Shown one piece after another: positions 3,513-9,511 of a stretch of 24,593 nucleotides of DNA. Where the stretch lies: the IMG/VR virus record IMGVR_UViG_3300048033_000280, positions 1-24,593 of that record; one strand, given 5' to 3'. Positions within the stretch are counted from its first letter, which is position 1, and each line of letters opens with the position of its first letter. The DNA is from a virus. The translations under genes were made by a program, and so were the position numbers. The notes below the pieces were generated by a model. That model saw only the letters and a program-made list of their open reading frames with translations, ran no database searches and was not told the origin of the DNA.

Positions 3513-3541
3513 ATTATAACTTATATTAAATGAGATGTCAA
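3513..3541 (-). promoter_or_regulatory. Consensus sigma70-type (early) promoter of the uvsW operon
   Basis: On the minus strand TTGACA (3536-3541) and TATAAT (3513-3518) are both perfect and separated by 17 nt. The -35 lies downstream of the glycosyltransferase stop codon at 3521-3523 on the plus map, so it is inside that gene's last codons. The predicted start near 3506 leaves a ~20-nt leader with AAGGAG before the GTG at 3486. Such promoters are read by unmodified host RNA polymerase. Confidence 0.85.
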
Positions 3542-4375
3542 GTGTTTAAGTGGGATACCTTGGGATATTTCTTCTATTGTGTATTCTGTATGAGCGTAGT
3601 CGTTTAGCCATTGTGTTCTATCTGGTGTCAAAGGCTGTTCAATATCGTGTAAAAAGTCTATATCGTTAGATACATCGTAAGCAAGACTATGAGTACTAAC
3701 AAAAGCAGGAACGCCCTGGATGATACTATGTATCCCAGGATTGCTACTGTAACTGATAGTGCAATGTATATTATTAAACCCCATATCAAAATCATCATAA
3801 GTGCCGTTAACATGTTGTGGCACCTGTCTGTATACATGTTTAAGACCACGTTCAATATGCTCTAGTTTACAACGTGGGTGCGGTCGAAATATAATTGGAC
3901 GATCTGTGTATTTCCGTATTTCATCATATGTATTTAAGAACCAATTGCTCATACGTGGCAGTCCTTGCCACTGTAAACTTTTATCGTGCTGTCCTGCTAT
4001 TAGAATAAAATCGCCGTTGGATCGCCAAGGCTTACAAACCAGTCCCAAGTTATCAGCCCTAGTCCTATCATTGTCTTTGTCACCAAAGTAACCGTCTCTG
4101 TTAATTCCATTTAGTCCTACTTTCCATGTTGTTCCTCTTTTAATGCCGCCGACTTCGAGTACGATGGTCGGTTTGGATTGTGCCACGTTCCGTTGCCAGA
4201 TAGCTTTGTTTCTAGCCATGCGACCATGCCAAAGTACACTCCAAATAACATCAACATCGCTATTGCTATCATTCCAAGTAACAGTATGCCCAGCAGCCAC
4301 AAGACTGTGAGCAAAGGCATCAAAAACCTCTCTACTATTAAGTGCGCCATATTGTGTCCATAAGCTAAATCTCAT
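3521..4375 (-). CDS. Capsule-type polysaccharide transferase (paralogue A)
   Basis: This 284-aa protein resembles the GT-B-like KpsC/KpsS capsule polysaccharide transferases. The C-terminal half holds the shared core of this phage's three paralogues: a KYTDRPIIFRPHPR strand-loop, then CTISYSSNPGIHSIIQGVPA, then a loop with VSNDIDFLHDIEQP, and a closing helical segment containing Y-x-x-E-E-I-x-x-G. In KpsC/S-like enzymes such segments bind a nucleotide-sugar, commonly CMP-Kdo; the donor here is not known. The N-terminal half is divergent (SDVDVIWSVLWHGRMA). There is no membrane segment, so it is probably cytoplasmic. It is divergent from the plus-strand transferase at 4418, with 42 nt between them. 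Confidence 0.7.
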   Translation of the reverse strand: MRFSLWTQYGALNSREVFDAFAHSLVAAGHTVTWNDSNSDVDVIWSVLWHGRMARNKAIWQRNVAQSKPTIVLEVGGIKRGTTWKVGLNGINRDGYFGDKDNDRTRADNLGLVCKPWRSNGDFILIAGQHDKSLQWQGLPRMSNWFLNTYDEIRKYTDRPIIFRPHPRCKLEHIERGLKHVYRQVPQHVNGTYDDFDMGFNNIHCTISYSSNPGIHSIIQGVPAFVSTHSLAYDVSNDIDFLHDIEQPLTPDRTQWLNDYAHTEYTIEEISQGIPLKHLTSHLI

Positions 4376-4378
4376 ATG

Positions 4379-4412
4379 TTAAATACTTCCATATAGCATA
4401 TTTACACGAGGA
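4379..4412. promoter_or_regulatory. Divergent late-type promoter region
   Basis: The 42-nt gap between two divergent glycan genes has a TTAAATAC motif on the plus strand (4379-4386), 32 nt before the ATG at 4418, and a GTAAATA motif on the minus strand (4399-4405), 23 nt before the ATG at 4375. Both fit the T4 late -10 element TATAAATA loosely. A GAGGA ribosome site at 4408-4412 precedes the plus-strand gene. Confidence 0.5.
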
Positions 4413-4417
4413 ACACA

Positions 4418-5257
4418 ATGTCAGCAATAACTGTGGTTACAACATTCCATCCAGAAGGATACTCAAAATATGGCAAACGCTTTTTAGAAAGTTTTGCCGC
4501 GAAAGTAGACAAGCGTATTAAATTAGTTGTGTACGCAGAGGACGTAAAACCTGATAACCCAGATCCTAGTAGAATAGAAATACTAGATGCAAAGCAAGCA
4601 TTACCTAAACTAAATGCATTTAAAGACAAATGGGGAGATGTTCCTAAGGCAAACGGAAAGTGTCCATTTCCAGAAAGACGTCCTAGAGATCATCATAAAG
4701 AATTTAAATGGGATGCTGTGCGTTTCGCTAATAAAGTATATGCTGTATTTGATGCATGCGAAAAAGCAAAGGATTGGGTTGTATGGATGGATGCAGATAC
4801 ATTTGTCCATAGTGACTGGAGTTACGAAGAGTTTTCCGAGTTGCTTCCTGACACTAGTTGGATTACTTATGTTGGTAGAGGCAAAGGCAGTGCAAGCTGG
4901 CCTGAGTGTGGTTTTTACGGAATGAACTTAAATGATAGTTGGTGTCAAGACTTTTTAGCAGAGTTTGAACGTATGTATGAAGATGCAGACAAAGGAATTT
5001 TTACACTAGACGAATGGCATGATAGTTTTGTGTTCGGACATATACTTAATAATATGAAGAAGACTGCACCTAACGTAATTGATTATACTGCTGAACTTGC
5101 ACTGCGAGGTGCCAAGACAGGCGGCGGCGGACATCCATTAATTAACAGTAGACTAGGCAACTGGATTGATCATATGAAGGGTGACCGCAAAAACAAAGGC
5201 AAAAGTTTAGCAAAGGACTTAGTAGTTAATCGTAAAGAGAGTTATTGGAATGATTGA
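4418..5257 (+). CDS. Glycosyltransferase with DxD motif
   Basis: This 279-aa protein starts with a Rossmann-like strand (ITVVTTFHPEGY) and has a DxD metal/nucleotide-sugar motif in VVWMDADTFVHSDW (D125, D127), followed by GxGxGSASWPECGFYGMN and a late EWHDSFVFGHIL segment. This is the pattern of GT-A transferases found in phage and bacterial surface-glycan loci. The donor and acceptor are unknown. It has a clear GAGGA site 5 nt before the ATG. It is one of only two complete plus-strand genes here and overlaps the following methyltransferase by 8 nt, so the two form a small coupled operon facing against all their neighbours. Confidence 0.75.
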   Translation: MSAITVVTTFHPEGYSKYGKRFLESFAAKVDKRIKLVVYAEDVKPDNPDPSRIEILDAKQALPKLNAFKDKWGDVPKANGKCPFPERRPRDHHKEFKWDAVRFANKVYAVFDACEKAKDWVVWMDADTFVHSDWSYEEFSELLPDTSWITYVGRGKGSASWPECGFYGMNLNDSWCQDFLAEFERMYEDADKGIFTLDEWHDSFVFGHILNNMKKTAPNVIDYTAELALRGAKTGGGGHPLINSRLGNWIDHMKGDRKNKGKSLAKDLVVNRKESYWND

Positions 5258-5894
5258 GCATTTAGGAATTTACTTACCTAACATAGAAACACACTTTCAA
5301 CGTATGTTAGATAAAAGTCTTAAGAAAGATAACTGTGTACGTTATCAACATCGAGTAAGAGATCATGCAATCAGCTTGTTAGAAAACAAACGCATAGCAT
5401 TAGACATTGGTGCTAATGTAGGGCTTTGGACAATGGATCTAGTTAAAGACTTTGAGTTCGTTCATTCGTTTGAGCCTGTACCAGAGTTCCAAGACTGCTT
5501 ATTTAGAAACACTGCACACGATAACTTTACACTACATCCTTGTGCATTAGGTGAAACTGAAGCAGAGATTGATATGATTATTACACCTGATAACACAGGA
5601 CATAGTCACGTTGATCCTAAGTCATTTGGCAAAGGCAAAACACCTATGCGTACACTAGATAGCTTTAACTTTAGTTTTGTTGATCTTATTAAAGTAGATT
5701 GTGAAGGATACGAAGTTCCTATTCTTAACGGAGCAAAAGAAACTATATTATCTAATCGTCCTATGATGATTGTTGAACAACAAGATCACGAGTATCAAGA
5801 AGACAGAGAAACACTTCCTGCTGTACAGCTATTAGAAAGCTGGGGTATGAAGCGTGTTACTAACTTTAACAAGGATTGGATCCTTACTTGGTAG
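5250..5894 (+). CDS. FkbM-family methyltransferase
   Basis: This 214-aa protein shows the FkbM pattern: motif I ALDIGANVGLWT near residues 50-61, motif II HSFEPVPE near 72-79, and the family hallmark IKVDCEGYEVPIL near 147-159, followed by MMIVEQQDHEY. FkbM enzymes usually O-methylate sugars or polyketides. Beside a glycosyltransferase, sugar capping by methylation is a reasonable inference. Translation overlaps the upstream gene (ATG inside its last codons). Its tail overlaps the tail of the minus-strand gene at 5884 by 11 nt, a convergent end without an obvious terminator. Confidence 0.85.
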   Translation: MIEHLGIYLPNIETHFQRMLDKSLKKDNCVRYQHRVRDHAISLLENKRIALDIGANVGLWTMDLVKDFEFVHSFEPVPEFQDCLFRNTAHDNFTLHPCALGETEAEIDMIITPDNTGHSHVDPKSFGKGKTPMRTLDSFNFSFVDLIKVDCEGYEVPILNGAKETILSNRPMMIVEQQDHEYQEDRETLPAVQLLESWGMKRVTNFNKDWILTW

Positions 5895-6813
5895 CCCACT
5901 GACGCATCCAGTCCCAACACTCACCACTTTTTAAATCTTCTTGATTCCAGTGACACATTGCTAGTTTTCTAATCCAATCTTCGCGGTCAAACTCCTCAGG
6001 ATTTTCTATTCTAGCCAATGATGTATTTGCAACACTGTATGCTTGACTTTGTATAGGATTTGGATCTGTAACAAATACTGGAACACCTTCGATTGCTGCT
6101 GCAACGCCTGGACTACTGTTATATGTAACCACTGCGCTTGCTACAGCTAAGTCGTCCATAAGTGTTTTACTTCTGCTTAATATAATGCCAGACTTAATTA
6201 ATTTCTTATAATGATGTCTCCAGTTTCCGTCACCTGGGTGGAAACGTAACATTACAGGCTTGTCGGTGTATTTTTTAATTTCTGGTAGGATTTCTAATAC
6301 CCAATCAACAACACGCTTGCCGCCCATACTCCATCCGCCATCACGTTGTGCGCATATAACAATATACTTTCCTTTGTTTCCGCGATACGGTTGTAGATCA
6401 AATCCTATATCTTTTCTAAGTTTCTCCCAACGTTTTGGATCAAACTTATCATTACAATATTCGCCAGTTGTAGGGAATACGCCGTCATAACTATAACGTA
6501 AGTAACGTTTAGTGTTGCCTGGATCTTTATACAAGAATAGATTACTATCAACAATTATAGTACGCTTTCCTTGTGCTGCTTGATGATCTAATACAGCCTT
6601 TCTAAGATTTAGATGGGGACTGCCTTCTGAACGTTCGTGAACATAACCTTGTATAACTGCAACATCAGAATTTATAGGATTGTTATCGTAACATACAATT
6701 CCTCTATCTGTGCCGTGACGATTGACTCCAACGATAAAGTTGTTGATAATCTCTGGCTTCTCAGGATTTCTATTATTAGCCGGGATGCCTCGCATATAAC
6801 TTGCTATTAACAT
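5884..6813 (-). CDS. Capsule-type polysaccharide transferase (paralogue B)
   Basis: This 309-aa protein is the longest of the three paralogous transferases. Core segments match the others: YIVICAQRDGGWSMGG, EIKKYTDKPVMLRFHPGDG, AVVTYNSSPGVAAAIEGVPV, then SVANTSLARIENPEEFDRED and a tail with W-N-Q-E-D-L-K-S-G. The GVP(V/A)F turn and the preceding small-residue helix resemble the donor-site region of KpsC/KpsS-like proteins. No transmembrane segment is seen. Its start overlaps the 266-aa paralogue by 7 nt, so B follows C in one translationally coupled unit. The exact sugar is unknown. Confidence 0.7.
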   Translation of the reverse strand: MLIASYMRGIPANNRNPEKPEIINNFIVGVNRHGTDRGIVCYDNNPINSDVAVIQGYVHERSEGSPHLNLRKAVLDHQAAQGKRTIIVDSNLFLYKDPGNTKRYLRYSYDGVFPTTGEYCNDKFDPKRWEKLRKDIGFDLQPYRGNKGKYIVICAQRDGGWSMGGKRVVDWVLEILPEIKKYTDKPVMLRFHPGDGNWRHHYKKLIKSGIILSRSKTLMDDLAVASAVVTYNSSPGVAAAIEGVPVFVTDPNPIQSQAYSVANTSLARIENPEEFDREDWIRKLAMCHWNQEDLKSGECWDWMRQWATK

Positions 6814-7607
6814 AGATTGTATTTTTCCTGTATTCTATATGCTGTGCCGTTTGATAATTCAGATGTATTGTACTGACAATACGCTAGCCAATGTATCCAT
6901 TTAGCAACTTGTTCTCTACTAGGATAGTAAGGATTTTCTATTTCACTAACATCTTTACTACACACGCTCCAAGCAGCATTAGGAGCACTTGCAAACGCTG
7001 GCACTCCAAACGAAACTGCTTCTGTTGCAGCAATACTATTGTATGTTACAACTGCATAGATTTTTTCGTCGAGCATTTGTCTAAAGATGCTGCTGTTACC
7101 TACTCGGTCTCTACGTGGCGGTTTGTCTCGAATAATAATTTCACGATCAGTGTGTTGCTTTAGTGTTGCTAATGTATCATTTAGCCATTCGTCTCGTGTT
7201 ATTCCGTAGTACTTGCACGGCTTCTCACTTGGAGTTACAATAAGTATTTTGCTTCCGCCTTTGCGCCATCCTGGAAAGTAAATTGGCCAATCAGGGTGCG
7301 ATAGTTTTGTTAATGCTTTGTATCTATCATCAGGAACATCTATAGGTGTTAGGTGCTGTACATTGTTTTTTACAACTCTATGGAAGTCCTTACGCTTGCC
7401 TAAGTTGCCAAGATACCCAGTATCAATATAGTAATAGTCTCTACCTTCTTCTGCACACCTTGCCATTATCTTACGCTTAGTCATTCCTCTAATAGCTACA
7501 GGAATGTTTTTGTCAACTAAGTGCAACTGTTCTAAATGTCCAAACGTGCCGTTAGAGCCTTTCCTCCATAACTCTAATATAGAGTCATTTCCATCAAATA
7601 GTATCAT
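6807..7607 (-). CDS. Capsule-type polysaccharide transferase (paralogue C)
   Basis: This 266-aa protein is the most divergent paralogue. It keeps KILIVTPSEKP, LKQHTDREIIIRDKPPRRDR, YAVVTYNSIAATEAVSFGVP, a loop ending SEIENPYYPSREQ and a closing LAYCQYNTSELSNG. The HP dipeptide of the other two after the IIFR strand is replaced by KPPRRDR, which may alter donor binding. The N-terminal region (ILFDGNDSILELWRKG) differs from A and B, which suggests a different acceptor. It overlaps the GT8-like gene upstream by 14 nt and paralogue B downstream by 7 nt. Confidence 0.65.
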   Translation of the reverse strand: MILFDGNDSILELWRKGSNGTFGHLEQLHLVDKNIPVAIRGMTKRKIMARCAEEGRDYYYIDTGYLGNLGKRKDFHRVVKNNVQHLTPIDVPDDRYKALTKLSHPDWPIYFPGWRKGGSKILIVTPSEKPCKYYGITRDEWLNDTLATLKQHTDREIIIRDKPPRRDRVGNSSIFRQMLDEKIYAVVTYNSIAATEAVSFGVPAFASAPNAAWSVCSKDVSEIENPYYPSREQVAKWIHWLAYCQYNTSELSNGTAYRIQEKYNLC

Positions 7608-8274
7608 TCATCATCTCAAATAATTCATCTTTCCAACGCAAACTAAACTCACAGTTTCTGTAGTTTTCAAACCAAGGTCCGCCTTCTGTGTAGTGTATTA
7701 GTTTGGGTACTTCGATGTCATCGTACACGCCTACTAAGTAGTTCCATGTGTGATCTAGTTCGCCAATTTCTTCATCTTTTAACCAACTAAATCTATGGAA
7801 GTATGCGCCGTTTAATTCTATATCGTTTACCATGTCTTGTGTTAGTCGAGCATTACTAGGGTGCGCACAATTAAACAATACAACACTTGACCAGTTCTTG
7901 CGTGGATAGACCGTTTGCCTTTGTCCGTCCATCTTCATGCCTTCCTTAGGTGTGTAATCATGTTGCACACACATAACAGCATACTTGTCGTCTGCTTGAT
8001 CAAACAGTTCTTTAATGTCTGTGGTAAGGATCATATCGCAATCCATAAACACTGCCCAACCTTTGAAGTTAGCAAGCTCTGGTACAAGAAAGCGTGTAAA
8101 GGTAAATTCAGTACTTGCAAGTTTGTCTTTAGGGCGTGTGTACCAACCAGCATCACGTAATTCCTTTTGCACTAACGGGCGTACAATTGCTTCTGGTTGT
8201 TTTGTTACAATACTATGCTTACATACTTGGTAAGCAATATCTTCTCGCGGATCGTATCCTACAAATACTTTCAT
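7594..8274 (-). CDS. GT8-like glycosyltransferase
   Basis: This 226-aa protein starts MKVFVGYDPREDIAYQV, the usual opening of GT8-like and stealth/DUF-type transferases in phages. It has a basic helix with TRFLVPEL near residues 60-67 and a DxD motif in AVFMDCDMIL (D78, D80). A C-terminal region LIHYTEGGPWFENY near 191-204 matches the H-x-x-G-x-x-P-W element that in GT8 closes over the metal and phosphates. It is therefore likely a metal-dependent transferase active on nucleotide-sugars. Start and stop overlap its neighbours (TAATG with the fusion gene), so it belongs to the same unit. Confidence 0.85.
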   Translation of the reverse strand: MKVFVGYDPREDIAYQVCKHSIVTKQPEAIVRPLVQKELRDAGWYTRPKDKLASTEFTFTRFLVPELANFKGWAVFMDCDMILTTDIKELFDQADDKYAVMCVQHDYTPKEGMKMDGQRQTVYPRKNWSSVVLFNCAHPSNARLTQDMVNDIELNGAYFHRFSWLKDEEIGELDHTWNYLVGVYDDIEVPKLIHYTEGGPWFENYRNCEFSLRWKDELFEMMNDTI

Positions 8275-9047
8275 TAATCTCTTCTTTCTATATCTTCTTC
8301 ATAACATTCACCTCGTTGTATTTCAAGGATGTGTGCGTTTTCTGTACTAGGATTGCTTGCTTTATGCCAAACTTCCTTGTCAATATTATAAGGTCTACTT
8401 TCAGGTTGTAATAGTATTGAACTTTGTATACTGTTCCACTCAGTGTCCATTTTTACTTTACCTTCTAGTATAGCCCATTGTTCTGAACGTTTAAAATGTT
8501 TTTGATCGCTTAGACTTTTGCCAGGATAGATTACAAGCTCTTTTACTTTGTAACCTTTCTCTGGCTTATCATCTAGTACACGCCAGTAGCCCCAATCACG
8601 TTCTGTCTTTTGTGTTTTCCACTCGTCGAGTATCCAACTGCTACTGTTAGCTTTGTTCGAACCACCTACCTTCCAAGCAAACTCTACATCTTGATGTTCA
8701 CCAAATGTAGCGTATTCTGGTGTAGTCTTGTTTGTTCGATCGCCGCCATTTGCAAATACAACACGCCAACTGCTGCCTTTAGTTTGTAGTACTTGGCCTA
8801 TAGCATTTATTGCTGTATCATCGTTGTCATTGAATCCGATAACTTCGTCAACACATTCTAGTTCTTTGATAATTGAACATCGTTCGCTAAAGGACATGAA
8901 TGGCCTACCCTTCTTACGAGTAAGCCATTCGTCACTGTTAACTCCGACTACTAGGTGATCACCTAGTTCTTTTGCTGCTTTAAAGTAGGCAATGTGCCCT
9001 GAGTGTAAGGGATCAAATCCGCCTGTTACTAATACTACTTTGCTCAT
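8274..9047 (-). CDS. Cytidylyltransferase-like / mannose-6-P-isomerase-type cupin fusion
   Basis: Two domains lie in 257 residues. Residues 1-145 are a nucleotidyltransferase of the GCT/RfaE-C type, with GGFDPLHSGH (HSGH at 15-18), VGVNSDEWLTRKKGRP, NGGDR (100-104) and an SSSW segment where relatives have the STSSI loop. Residues 152-257 match the cupin at the C-terminus of bifunctional GMP/PMI enzymes (ManC/AlgA): WGYWRVLDD, YKVKELVIYPGKSLSDQKHF, EQWAILEGKV, VWHKASNP and RGECYEEDI. Of the expected metal ligands Q, H, E and a later H are present, but the second His of the HHH cluster is Lys. It probably makes an activated sugar or polyol for the adjacent transferases; the substrate is unknown. 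Confidence 0.8.
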   Translation of the reverse strand: MSKVVLVTGGFDPLHSGHIAYFKAAKELGDHLVVGVNSDEWLTRKKGRPFMSFSERCSIIKELECVDEVIGFNDNDDTAINAIGQVLQTKGSSWRVVFANGGDRTNKTTPEYATFGEHQDVEFAWKVGGSNKANSSSWILDEWKTQKTERDWGYWRVLDDKPEKGYKVKELVIYPGKSLSDQKHFKRSEQWAILEGKVKMDTEWNSIQSSILLQPESRPYNIDKEVWHKASNPSTENAHILEIQRGECYEEDIERRD

Positions 9048-9052
9048 AAAAG

Positions 9053-9060
9053 TATTTACA
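9053..9060 (-). promoter_or_regulatory. Late-type promoter motif before the glycan block
   Basis: TGTAAATA followed by C is found on the minus strand and ends 5 nt before the ATG at 9047. It includes the TAA stop of uvsY (9056-9058). It resembles the T4 late -10 TATAAATA but lacks the second T-A step. Confidence 0.45.
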
Positions 9061-9511
9061 AAGTTGCATCTTCCATCCCTGCAACTCTGAGCTTAACTAC
9101 GTTTGTAATTTGCCATTGCTTCTGATCAAGGCCTTTTAGTACACCTAACCATTTGTTACGCATTAGCGCAAAGTCATTAATGATCTTTTCGTAATCACAA
9201 ACATCTGCCTCGCCGTCAACGTATTTTTCAACGTCACGACTAGACAGAGCTCGTTGGTAGTTCTCGAGGTATTTCTTAAAGTACGAGCTACGCAATCTAC
9301 GTAGCTCGATGTTTAAGTAGTTAAGTATAGCTTCAATTTCTTGAAGTTGATTAAATCTATATTCAACAATGCCAGGCATGCTAGCTGCCGCCTTTTCAAC
9401 ATTTCCTACTAGTTTAACTTCTTTACGAGCGTCAACTAGTTCATTTTCAAAGTGTTGTATTGCTGCTGGGATTTGATTAATATCTCTAGAAACTTTGCTA
9501 TACCAAGCCAT
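9056..9511 (-). CDS. uvsY: UvsY recombination mediator
   Basis: This 151-aa protein matches the UvsY form of marine T4-like phages: AWYSKVSRDINQIPAAIQHF at the start, ELVDARKEVKLVGNVEKAA, the YRFNQLQEIEAILNYLNIEL helix, SRDVEKYVDGEADV and the closing KQWQITNVVKLRVAGMEDA. UvsY forms rings on gp32-covered single-stranded DNA and loads UvsX; its N-terminal helices bind UvsX and DNA, and the C-terminal part drives oligomerisation. T4 UvsY is 137 aa, so the length fits. It sits 1 nt from the 79-aa gene and close to uvsX, so mediator and recombinase are co-transcribed. Confidence 0.93.
   Translation of the reverse strand: MAWYSKVSRDINQIPAAIQHFENELVDARKEVKLVGNVEKAAASMPGIVEYRFNQLQEIEAILNYLNIELRRLRSSYFKKYLENYQRALSSRDVEKYVDGEADVCDYEKIINDFALMRNKWLGVLKGLDQKQWQITNVVKLRVAGMEDATL

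Follow-up and report, generated by a model that had tools for sequence, protein, structure and literature searches.

A conserved glycan-synthesis gene block between uvsY and uvsW in marine jumbo myoviruses and its possible role in virion glycosylation

Composition and conservation of the block

The 24.6 kb window analysed here (IMG/VR record IMGVR_UViG_3300048033_000280, positions 1 to 24,593) represents part of a marine jumbo myovirus genome and carries a block of genes for glycan synthesis within its recombination gene region. The gene content of the window is both T4-like and jumbo-type, comprising gp32, UvsX, UvsY, UvsW, terminase, sheath and tube-like proteins; most of these names follow the position of the open reading frames (ORFs) and the labels of a preliminary description, and UvsY and UvsX were tested by search. 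The nearest matches of UvsX are found in Agrobacterium phage Atu_ph07 (66%) and Sinorhizobium phage Phosso (64%), followed by the jumbo phages CBB, GAP32 and RaK2, and a megablast comparison of the window with known phages gave a DNA-level match for uvsX only. Seven full-length intact ORFs, P1 to P7, occupy positions 3521-9047 between uvsY (9056-9511, minus strand; phrog_231, 2.9e-16), which is the upstream border of the insertion, and uvsW (842-2305). The preliminary description had placed a contiguous seven-gene block between uvsY and the uvsW operon. The seven syntenic ORFs and the uvsY border stand, but the genes do not form a single operon, P2 and P3 being on the plus strand and the other five on the minus strand, and a further gene of the recombination backbone, P8 (2302-3486, minus strand), lies before uvsW and marks the downstream border.

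P7 (8274-9047, minus strand) is a fusion of a HIGH-type nucleotidyltransferase (HldE-II/TagD-like) and a MannoseP_isomer-type cupin, with Pfam matches to CTP_transf_like (4e-16) and MannoseP_isomer (2e-15). Its H15-x-G-H18 motif is invariant in 34 relatives, and its N-terminal half is about 53% identical to proteins of phages S-SSM7 and P-TIM68. We infer that P7 is the first gene of a late glycan operon and that its role is donor-sugar activation. P6 (7594-8274, minus strand) is a GT8-like retaining GT-A glycosyltransferase (PF01501, 6e-6; phrog_28018, 7e-53) that passes the Glyco_transf_8 profile marginally, with 26.4 bits against a cut-off of 24.3, and has a DxD metal site, D78-x-D80, invariant in 25 relatives. 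In five contigs, P6 and P5 are fused into a single protein of some 560 residues, which suggests that the two enzymes catalyse consecutive steps. P2 (4418-5257, plus strand), inverted relative to the rest of the core, is a DxD glycosyltransferase in which D125 and D127 are invariant in 38 relatives; its AlphaFold model has the GT-A fold, with weak matches to GT6 and to the GT8 protein WbbM. P3 (5250-5894, plus strand) is an FkbM-family methyltransferase (PF05050, 8e-17; TIGR01444, 6e-23, 82 bits against a cut-off of 37.7).

The enzyme types initially assigned to the block hold, on Pfam evidence for P7, P6 and P3, and on predicted glycosyltransferase folds for P1 and P2, although Pfam is silent on these two. 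No significant Pfam match was obtained for P1, P2, P4 or P5, and a sequence search of the PDB with the profiles of P1, P2 and P4 returned nothing meaningful.

Relatives of the block were collected by an IMG/VR search with P6, which gave 445 of them (the best 80 were read), and by a second sample chosen with UvsX, independently of the block. Across about 150 related contigs, the core P7-P6-P5-P4-P2-P1 is located between uvsY and P8, and the order gp32-UvsX-g9513-UvsY-[slot 1]-P7-P6-P5-P4-[slot 2, P2]-P1-P8-UvsW recurs in dozens of contigs. The two slots are hypervariable sets of accessory glycan genes that flank or interrupt the core, and the gap between uvsY and P7 ranges from none to 8.2 kb. 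In the UvsX-chosen sample, core genes were present in 36 of the 39 contigs having at least 3 kb after uvsY, and all seven contigs that span uvsY to uvsW carried glycan genes in that interval. Relatives devoid of the block, which the preliminary description had proposed to look for, do exist: in the closest cultured ones, Phosso and Atu_ph07, none of the seven families was found in the uvsY-uvsW region, and the corresponding interval of Phosso holds a homolog of P8 and a few other genes only. The block therefore represents an insertion or an ancestral gain between uvsY and P8.

The seven genes are genuine and intact, and purifying selection acts on each of them. The ratio of non-synonymous to synonymous substitution rates (dN/dS), computed with the 12 closest relatives, is 0.05 for both P6 and UvsY, 0.12 for UvsX, 0.13 for P7 and 0.12-0.17 for P1, P2, P4 and P5, the values for P4 and P5 coming from 2-3 pairs because synonymous sites are saturated. 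P6 is the most conserved gene of the block, level with UvsY. Chance or decayed ORFs, the latter named at the outset as an outcome that would undermine the block, are ruled out by intactness, synteny and the dN/dS range of 0.05-0.17.

P1, P4 and P5 as a family of predicted KpsC/WbbB-like fold

The three capsule-type transferases of the preliminary description are indeed present, and profile comparison (hhalign) now corrects them to paralogs of a single family: P4 matches P1 with 5e-48, P5 matches P4 with 1e-41 and P5 matches P1 with 5e-29. The AlphaFold model of P1 (3521-4375, minus strand; mean predicted local distance difference test score 94.6) has a KpsC/WbbB-like GT-B fold, and its 26 best Foldseek matches in the PDB are all retaining 3-deoxy-D-manno-oct-2-ulosonic acid (Kdo) transferases, with E-values of 6e-7 to 9e-5. 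P4 (5884-6813, minus strand) and P5 (6807-7607, minus strand), the latter a variable core copy, are tied to this fold through their profile matches to P1. Loci longer than 13 kb contain 1-5 copies of the family, mostly 3-4. The P1 fold was also seen by Foldseek among viral models in four capsule-polysaccharide-type glycosyltransferases of Tetraselmis virus 1 (BFVD A0A2P0VNK4, A0A2P0VP54, A0A2P0VP74 and A0A2P0VP72; template modelling (TM) scores 0.69-0.77), which, unlike the jumbo phage encoding P1, is a eukaryotic giant virus of algae.

The comparison with published signatures of the retaining beta-Kdo transferases KpsC (GT107), WbbB (GT99) and KrkA (GT140) (PMC12887879, PMC9587256, PMC10148158) extends beyond the predicted fold to the (K/R)XHP, SS and TY elements. 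The (K/R)XHP motif for binding of cytidine monophosphate (CMP) is found in all P1 proteins (R164-x-H166-P167, 37/37), which also retain Y193 (37/37), T192 (35/37) and S211 (37/37), and in all P4 proteins (R190, H192 and P193, 53/53). It is missing from P5, where R160, S191 and D62 are invariant and the histidine is replaced by lysine or arginine. From the glutamine of the QXXXD motif to the K/R position, P1 has a spacing of 35, compared with 36 for KpsC and KrkA, and T192-Y193 and S210-S211 of P1 nearly match the spacing of T254-Y255 and S271-S272 in KrkA. This glutamine is kept in P1 and in P4 (Q156, 53/53) and absent from P5. Unlike in KpsC, WbbB and KrkA, the position of the nucleophilic aspartate is occupied by serine in every P1 (S133, 37/37) and by glycine in core P4 proteins, and QXXXD with its nucleophile does not occur in core P1, P4 or P5. 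The full QXXXD and HP signature is present in 41 of 309 ORFs of the family, accessory cargo copies among them.

Since the catalytic aspartate is not kept in the core copies, we rejected a designation of P1, P4 and P5 as Kdo transferases. The family may rather consist of cytidine-nucleotide transferases, with core members that probably work without the covalent mechanism. The enzymes that share the fold and the CMP-binding signature of retaining Kdo transferases are thereby joined by a large phage family, in which the nucleophile is either present or lost, and the two kinds of copies bear on the evolution of the unusual double-displacement mechanism.

Late-type motifs and accessory cargo

The consensus of the T4 late promoter is TATAAATA. 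TAAATA elements are found in the window immediately upstream of the sheath, tube and terminase genes, of further genes of the structural region and of P7 (GTAAATAC, 9052-9059, minus strand), P1 (GTAAATAT, 4398-4405, minus strand) and P2 (TTAAATA, 4379-4385, plus strand), and none stands directly before uvsX, uvsY, gp32 or uvsW. This placement and the likeness to the T4 consensus suggest that the element is a late promoter. We scored the motif in the relatives as [AGT]TAAATA within 50 nt upstream of a gene. It precedes P7 in 74 of 85 cases (9% expected; chance range 4-12%) and structural-region genes in 42-100% of cases (44/45, 18/18, 11/16, 8/10, 5/6 and, for TerL, 13/31). At the recombination genes it is rare (uvsX 2/110, uvsY 2/110, gp32 2/88, uvsW 0/30), as it is at the internal genes of the block (P6 0/76, P5 0/27, P4 1/61).

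The late expression proposed earlier is strengthened by motif enrichment before P7 and, where P2 is inverted, before P1 and P2. Loci with inverted P2 have the motif before P1 in 5/7 and before P2 in 6/7 cases, in contrast to 1/32 for each gene in co-directional loci (Fisher test, 2e-4 for P1 and 1.5e-5 for P2). The recurrence of late motifs after inversion amounts to a natural experiment, from which late expression appears to be maintained by selection.

The cargo of the slots comprises 425 ORFs in 93 clusters, P2 being counted where it lies in slot 2. A Pfam run on 57 cluster representatives gave 55 families; the 25 of these that were listed include several kinds of methyltransferase, FkbM, GDP-mannose-dehydratase, epimerase, sulfotransferase, DegT aminotransferase, cytidylyltransferase and GSCFA, and the first cargo member gave a GT25 match. 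NAD-dependent epimerases are absent from the window and present in the accessory cargo of relatives. P3 itself belongs to the cargo of slot 2 and is sporadic among relatives. The original suggestion that the genes build a sugar chain and then cap it is supported and strengthened in its broader part, the building and modification of a glycan. As FkbM belongs to the accessory cargo rather than to the core, however, it does not provide a general cap.

Transmembrane-like segments are absent from 545 of 546 core and FkbM proteins and from 422 of 425 cargo proteins, and the sole protein with several such segments among the core and the 425 cargo ORFs is encoded by one ORF of 91 amino acids. Bacterial O-antigen and capsule loci have a membrane initiating transferase and a flippase and polymerase or an ABC exporter, in contrast to the core and cargo of the block; no flippase, polymerase, ABC exporter or initiating phosphoglycosyltransferase was found among the 25 listed of the 55 cargo families. 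The pathway looks to be cytosolic only.

Candidate targets of the glycan pathway

Clusters with the same enzyme types have been described in the jumbo cyanophages P-SSM2 and S-SSM7 (Iyer et al. 2021, PMC7824862), so that the proposal of a new system made for our block was too strong. Like those clusters, it unites several paralogous glycosyltransferases, a HIGH nucleotidyltransferase and a cupin in one polymorphic cluster, and both systems involve methyltransferases and vary between related phages. The cyanophage clusters hold 1-4 NAD-dependent epimerases; in our phage group, epimerases belong to the accessory cargo of relatives of the window. Unlike them, it belongs to another phage group and to a fixed uvsY-uvsW locus, its nucleotidyltransferase and cupin are fused, its core of a GT8 and three KpsC-fold paralogs is conserved, its cargo is confined to two slots and its core carries a late-type promoter. 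The block is a fresh variant of phage polysaccharide clusters already known from jumbo cyanophages. Two points are unusual: the late core is conserved, its GT8 gene as strongly as recombination proteins, and the Kdo-transferase fold has radiated in phages, with core copies devoid of the catalytic nucleophile.

Homologs of genes of the block also occur in other phage families and at other loci, without a match to P7 in Mosig, the Caulobacter Bertelyviruses or podovirus ct7QV12. The T4-like Pelagibacter phage Mosig has P3-P3-P2-P6-P5 homologs in a row and another P5 homolog close by. In the Caulobacter Bertelyvirus CcrSC, P4-P5-P6 homologs and an FkbM-annotated gene come straight after the tail-fibre genes, in podovirus ct7QV12 P2 and P4 homologs adjoin terminase, and in podovirus ctDrO704 a P6 homolog and an FkbM-annotated gene lie between capsid and tail genes.

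Of the two targets originally envisaged, the virion and the host envelope, the sequence evidence leans to the virion. It is favoured as the acceptor by late timing, by enzymes that look cytosolic throughout, by the proximity of homologs to virion genes in other phages and by the lack of a flippase or exporter, and we give about even credence to a soluble, late-expressed pathway through which virion proteins receive a variable oligosaccharide. Such glycosylation would take place in the cytosol before or during assembly. P7 would supply a nucleotide-activated donor, the GT-A enzymes P6 and/or P2 would link the first sugars to the acceptor or extend them, and P5, P4 and P1 would add further residues, probably from cytidine-nucleotide (CMP- or cytidine diphosphate-) donors. 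The interchangeable enzymes of the two slots (FkbM and other methyltransferases, GT25 and other glycosyltransferases, sulfotransferase, epimerases and aminotransferase) would diversify the outer end, so that each phage strain would display its own glycan on a conserved core. The substrates, the order of transfer and the virion as the acceptor are parts of this model.

There is a known parallel in mycobacteriophages, where phage-encoded glycans are reported on capsid and tail-tube subunits (Freeman et al. 2023, as cited in PMC12619734); our literature search on glycosylated phage virions found little else. Compared with those glycans, the multi-enzyme core and variable cargo suggest a longer, tailored chain. 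Several points weigh against a virion target. The Mosig and DLP_6 homologs are placed away from virion genes, and the structural match of P1 to Kdo transferases is weak (TM scores 0.44-0.57, about 12% identity). The late reading of the motif comes from enrichment. In 84 of 91 loci, no late motif separates uvsY from the slot-1 cargo behind it; this cargo may be read from the earlier uvsX-uvsY unit, and part of the modifying gene set may accordingly be expressed earlier than the core. Finally, membrane segments are also missing from lipopolysaccharide (LPS)-core transferases, which makes host LPS a conceivable acceptor.

In this last case, the enzymes would act during infection at the cytosolic face, with the LPS core or a different lipid-linked glycan as their substrate, and keep rival phages or released progeny from adsorbing. 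Surface change is the published reading of the jumbo cyanophage clusters (PMC7824862), 76% of the PGC_C marine jumbo phages have LPS genes (PMC9123017), surface glycans of bacteria are what KpsC/WbbB-type enzymes act on, P6 has homologs in genomes of alphaproteobacteria, and the cargo includes an LPS-type GT25 and nucleotide-sugar dehydratases. That reading and the peripheral nature of LPS-core enzymes keep host LPS-core modification in consideration. However, late timing is unusual for superinfection exclusion, and the membrane components listed above, including a membrane-bound initiating enzyme, were not seen in the core or among the listed cargo families, nor was a ligase. The P6 homologs of bacteria are mostly alphaproteobacterial, and some betaproteobacterial genes are embedded in the phage group. 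In the P6 tree, three marine betaproteobacterial genes fall inside that group and most SAR11 genes stand apart, with weak deep support, and these placements make a host inference from P6 homologs not decisive. In about 30 genomes of SAR11 and other alphaproteobacteria, the homolog is a lone gene near TsaD and HemY-like genes and large tetratricopeptide-repeat proteins; in SAR11 this position beside TsaD and HemY, outside an LPS cluster, speaks against a role at the host surface. Overall, we regard a host-surface target as the main competing explanation, possible but rather doubtful. An even more distant idea, raised in a similar form for S-SSM6a (PMC7824862), is a free or lipid-linked small metabolite acting on the host or on competitors. 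The tailoring enzymes (aminotransferase, sulfotransferase and, elsewhere in the genome, 2-oxoglutarate (2OG) oxygenases) resemble those of secondary-metabolite clusters, but five of the six core proteins are glycosyltransferases, P6 is conserved like recombination proteins and the cluster has no exporter, which makes this explanation unlikely.

The position of the block within the recombination and replication region, and the fact that T4-like phages are known to glycosylate their DNA, might suggest hypermodification of phage DNA by the glycosyltransferases. T4 DNA glucosyltransferases, however, are not late genes, in contrast to the late-type block. We know of no precedent for hypervariable methylation or sulfation cargo acting on DNA-bound sugars. 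PF00303 (thymidylate synthase/dCMP hydroxymethylase) was matched in none of five long relatives, which are possibly incomplete (the control was positive in 9 of 14 genomes), and the related contig G001 makes thymidylate via ThyX. A Tet/JBP search gave no match either, but it had no positive control and so carries little weight. We rejected DNA glycosylation on the PF00303 result and hold it to be very improbable. As a separate observation, G001 encodes GTP cyclohydrolase I, a QueC-like protein and ThyX, and 7-deazaguanine DNA modification is possible in the phage group of the window.

Returning to the virion as the target, a more specific and tentative proposal is an 'O-antigen of the virion'. 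Here the late core would make an oligosaccharide derived from cytidine nucleotides (Kdo- or nonulosonate-like) on structural proteins, the three nucleophile-less KpsC-fold transferases of the core would perhaps be inverting, and the two cargo slots would give the particle its serotype. Such a per-phage serotype could shape adsorption, grazing or host defence, and a strain-specific glycan coat would then be a core trait of a widespread marine jumbo phage group. P6 and P1 offer a clear genetic handle on a virion coat.

Several minor observations concern the surroundings of the block and its relatives. P8, just upstream of uvsW, encodes a fast-evolving protein with no assigned function. A perfect sigma-70 promoter (TTGACA-17-TATAAT, 3513-3541, minus strand), read directly from the sequence, sits at the block's 3' edge, where it overlaps the end of P1 and precedes P8-uvsW, which it is predicted to drive. 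Genes of the block and uvsX/uvsY/uvsW also turn up in four contigs of species-representative metagenome-assembled genomes (labels Euryarchaeota, Neomarinimicrobiota, Pelagibacter and Rickettsiales); these contigs are probably misbinned fragments of the same phage group. In G001, a run of about 57 co-directional genes (~134-190 kb) follows the tail-collar genes and contains most of the 19 radical S-adenosylmethionine (SAM) matches of this contig, together with SPASM, B12-binding, 2OG-Fe oxygenase, aminotransferase and epimerase genes. Radical SAM matches, many of them clustered, are also numerous in G002 (17) and G003 (13), which is unexpected in a phage.

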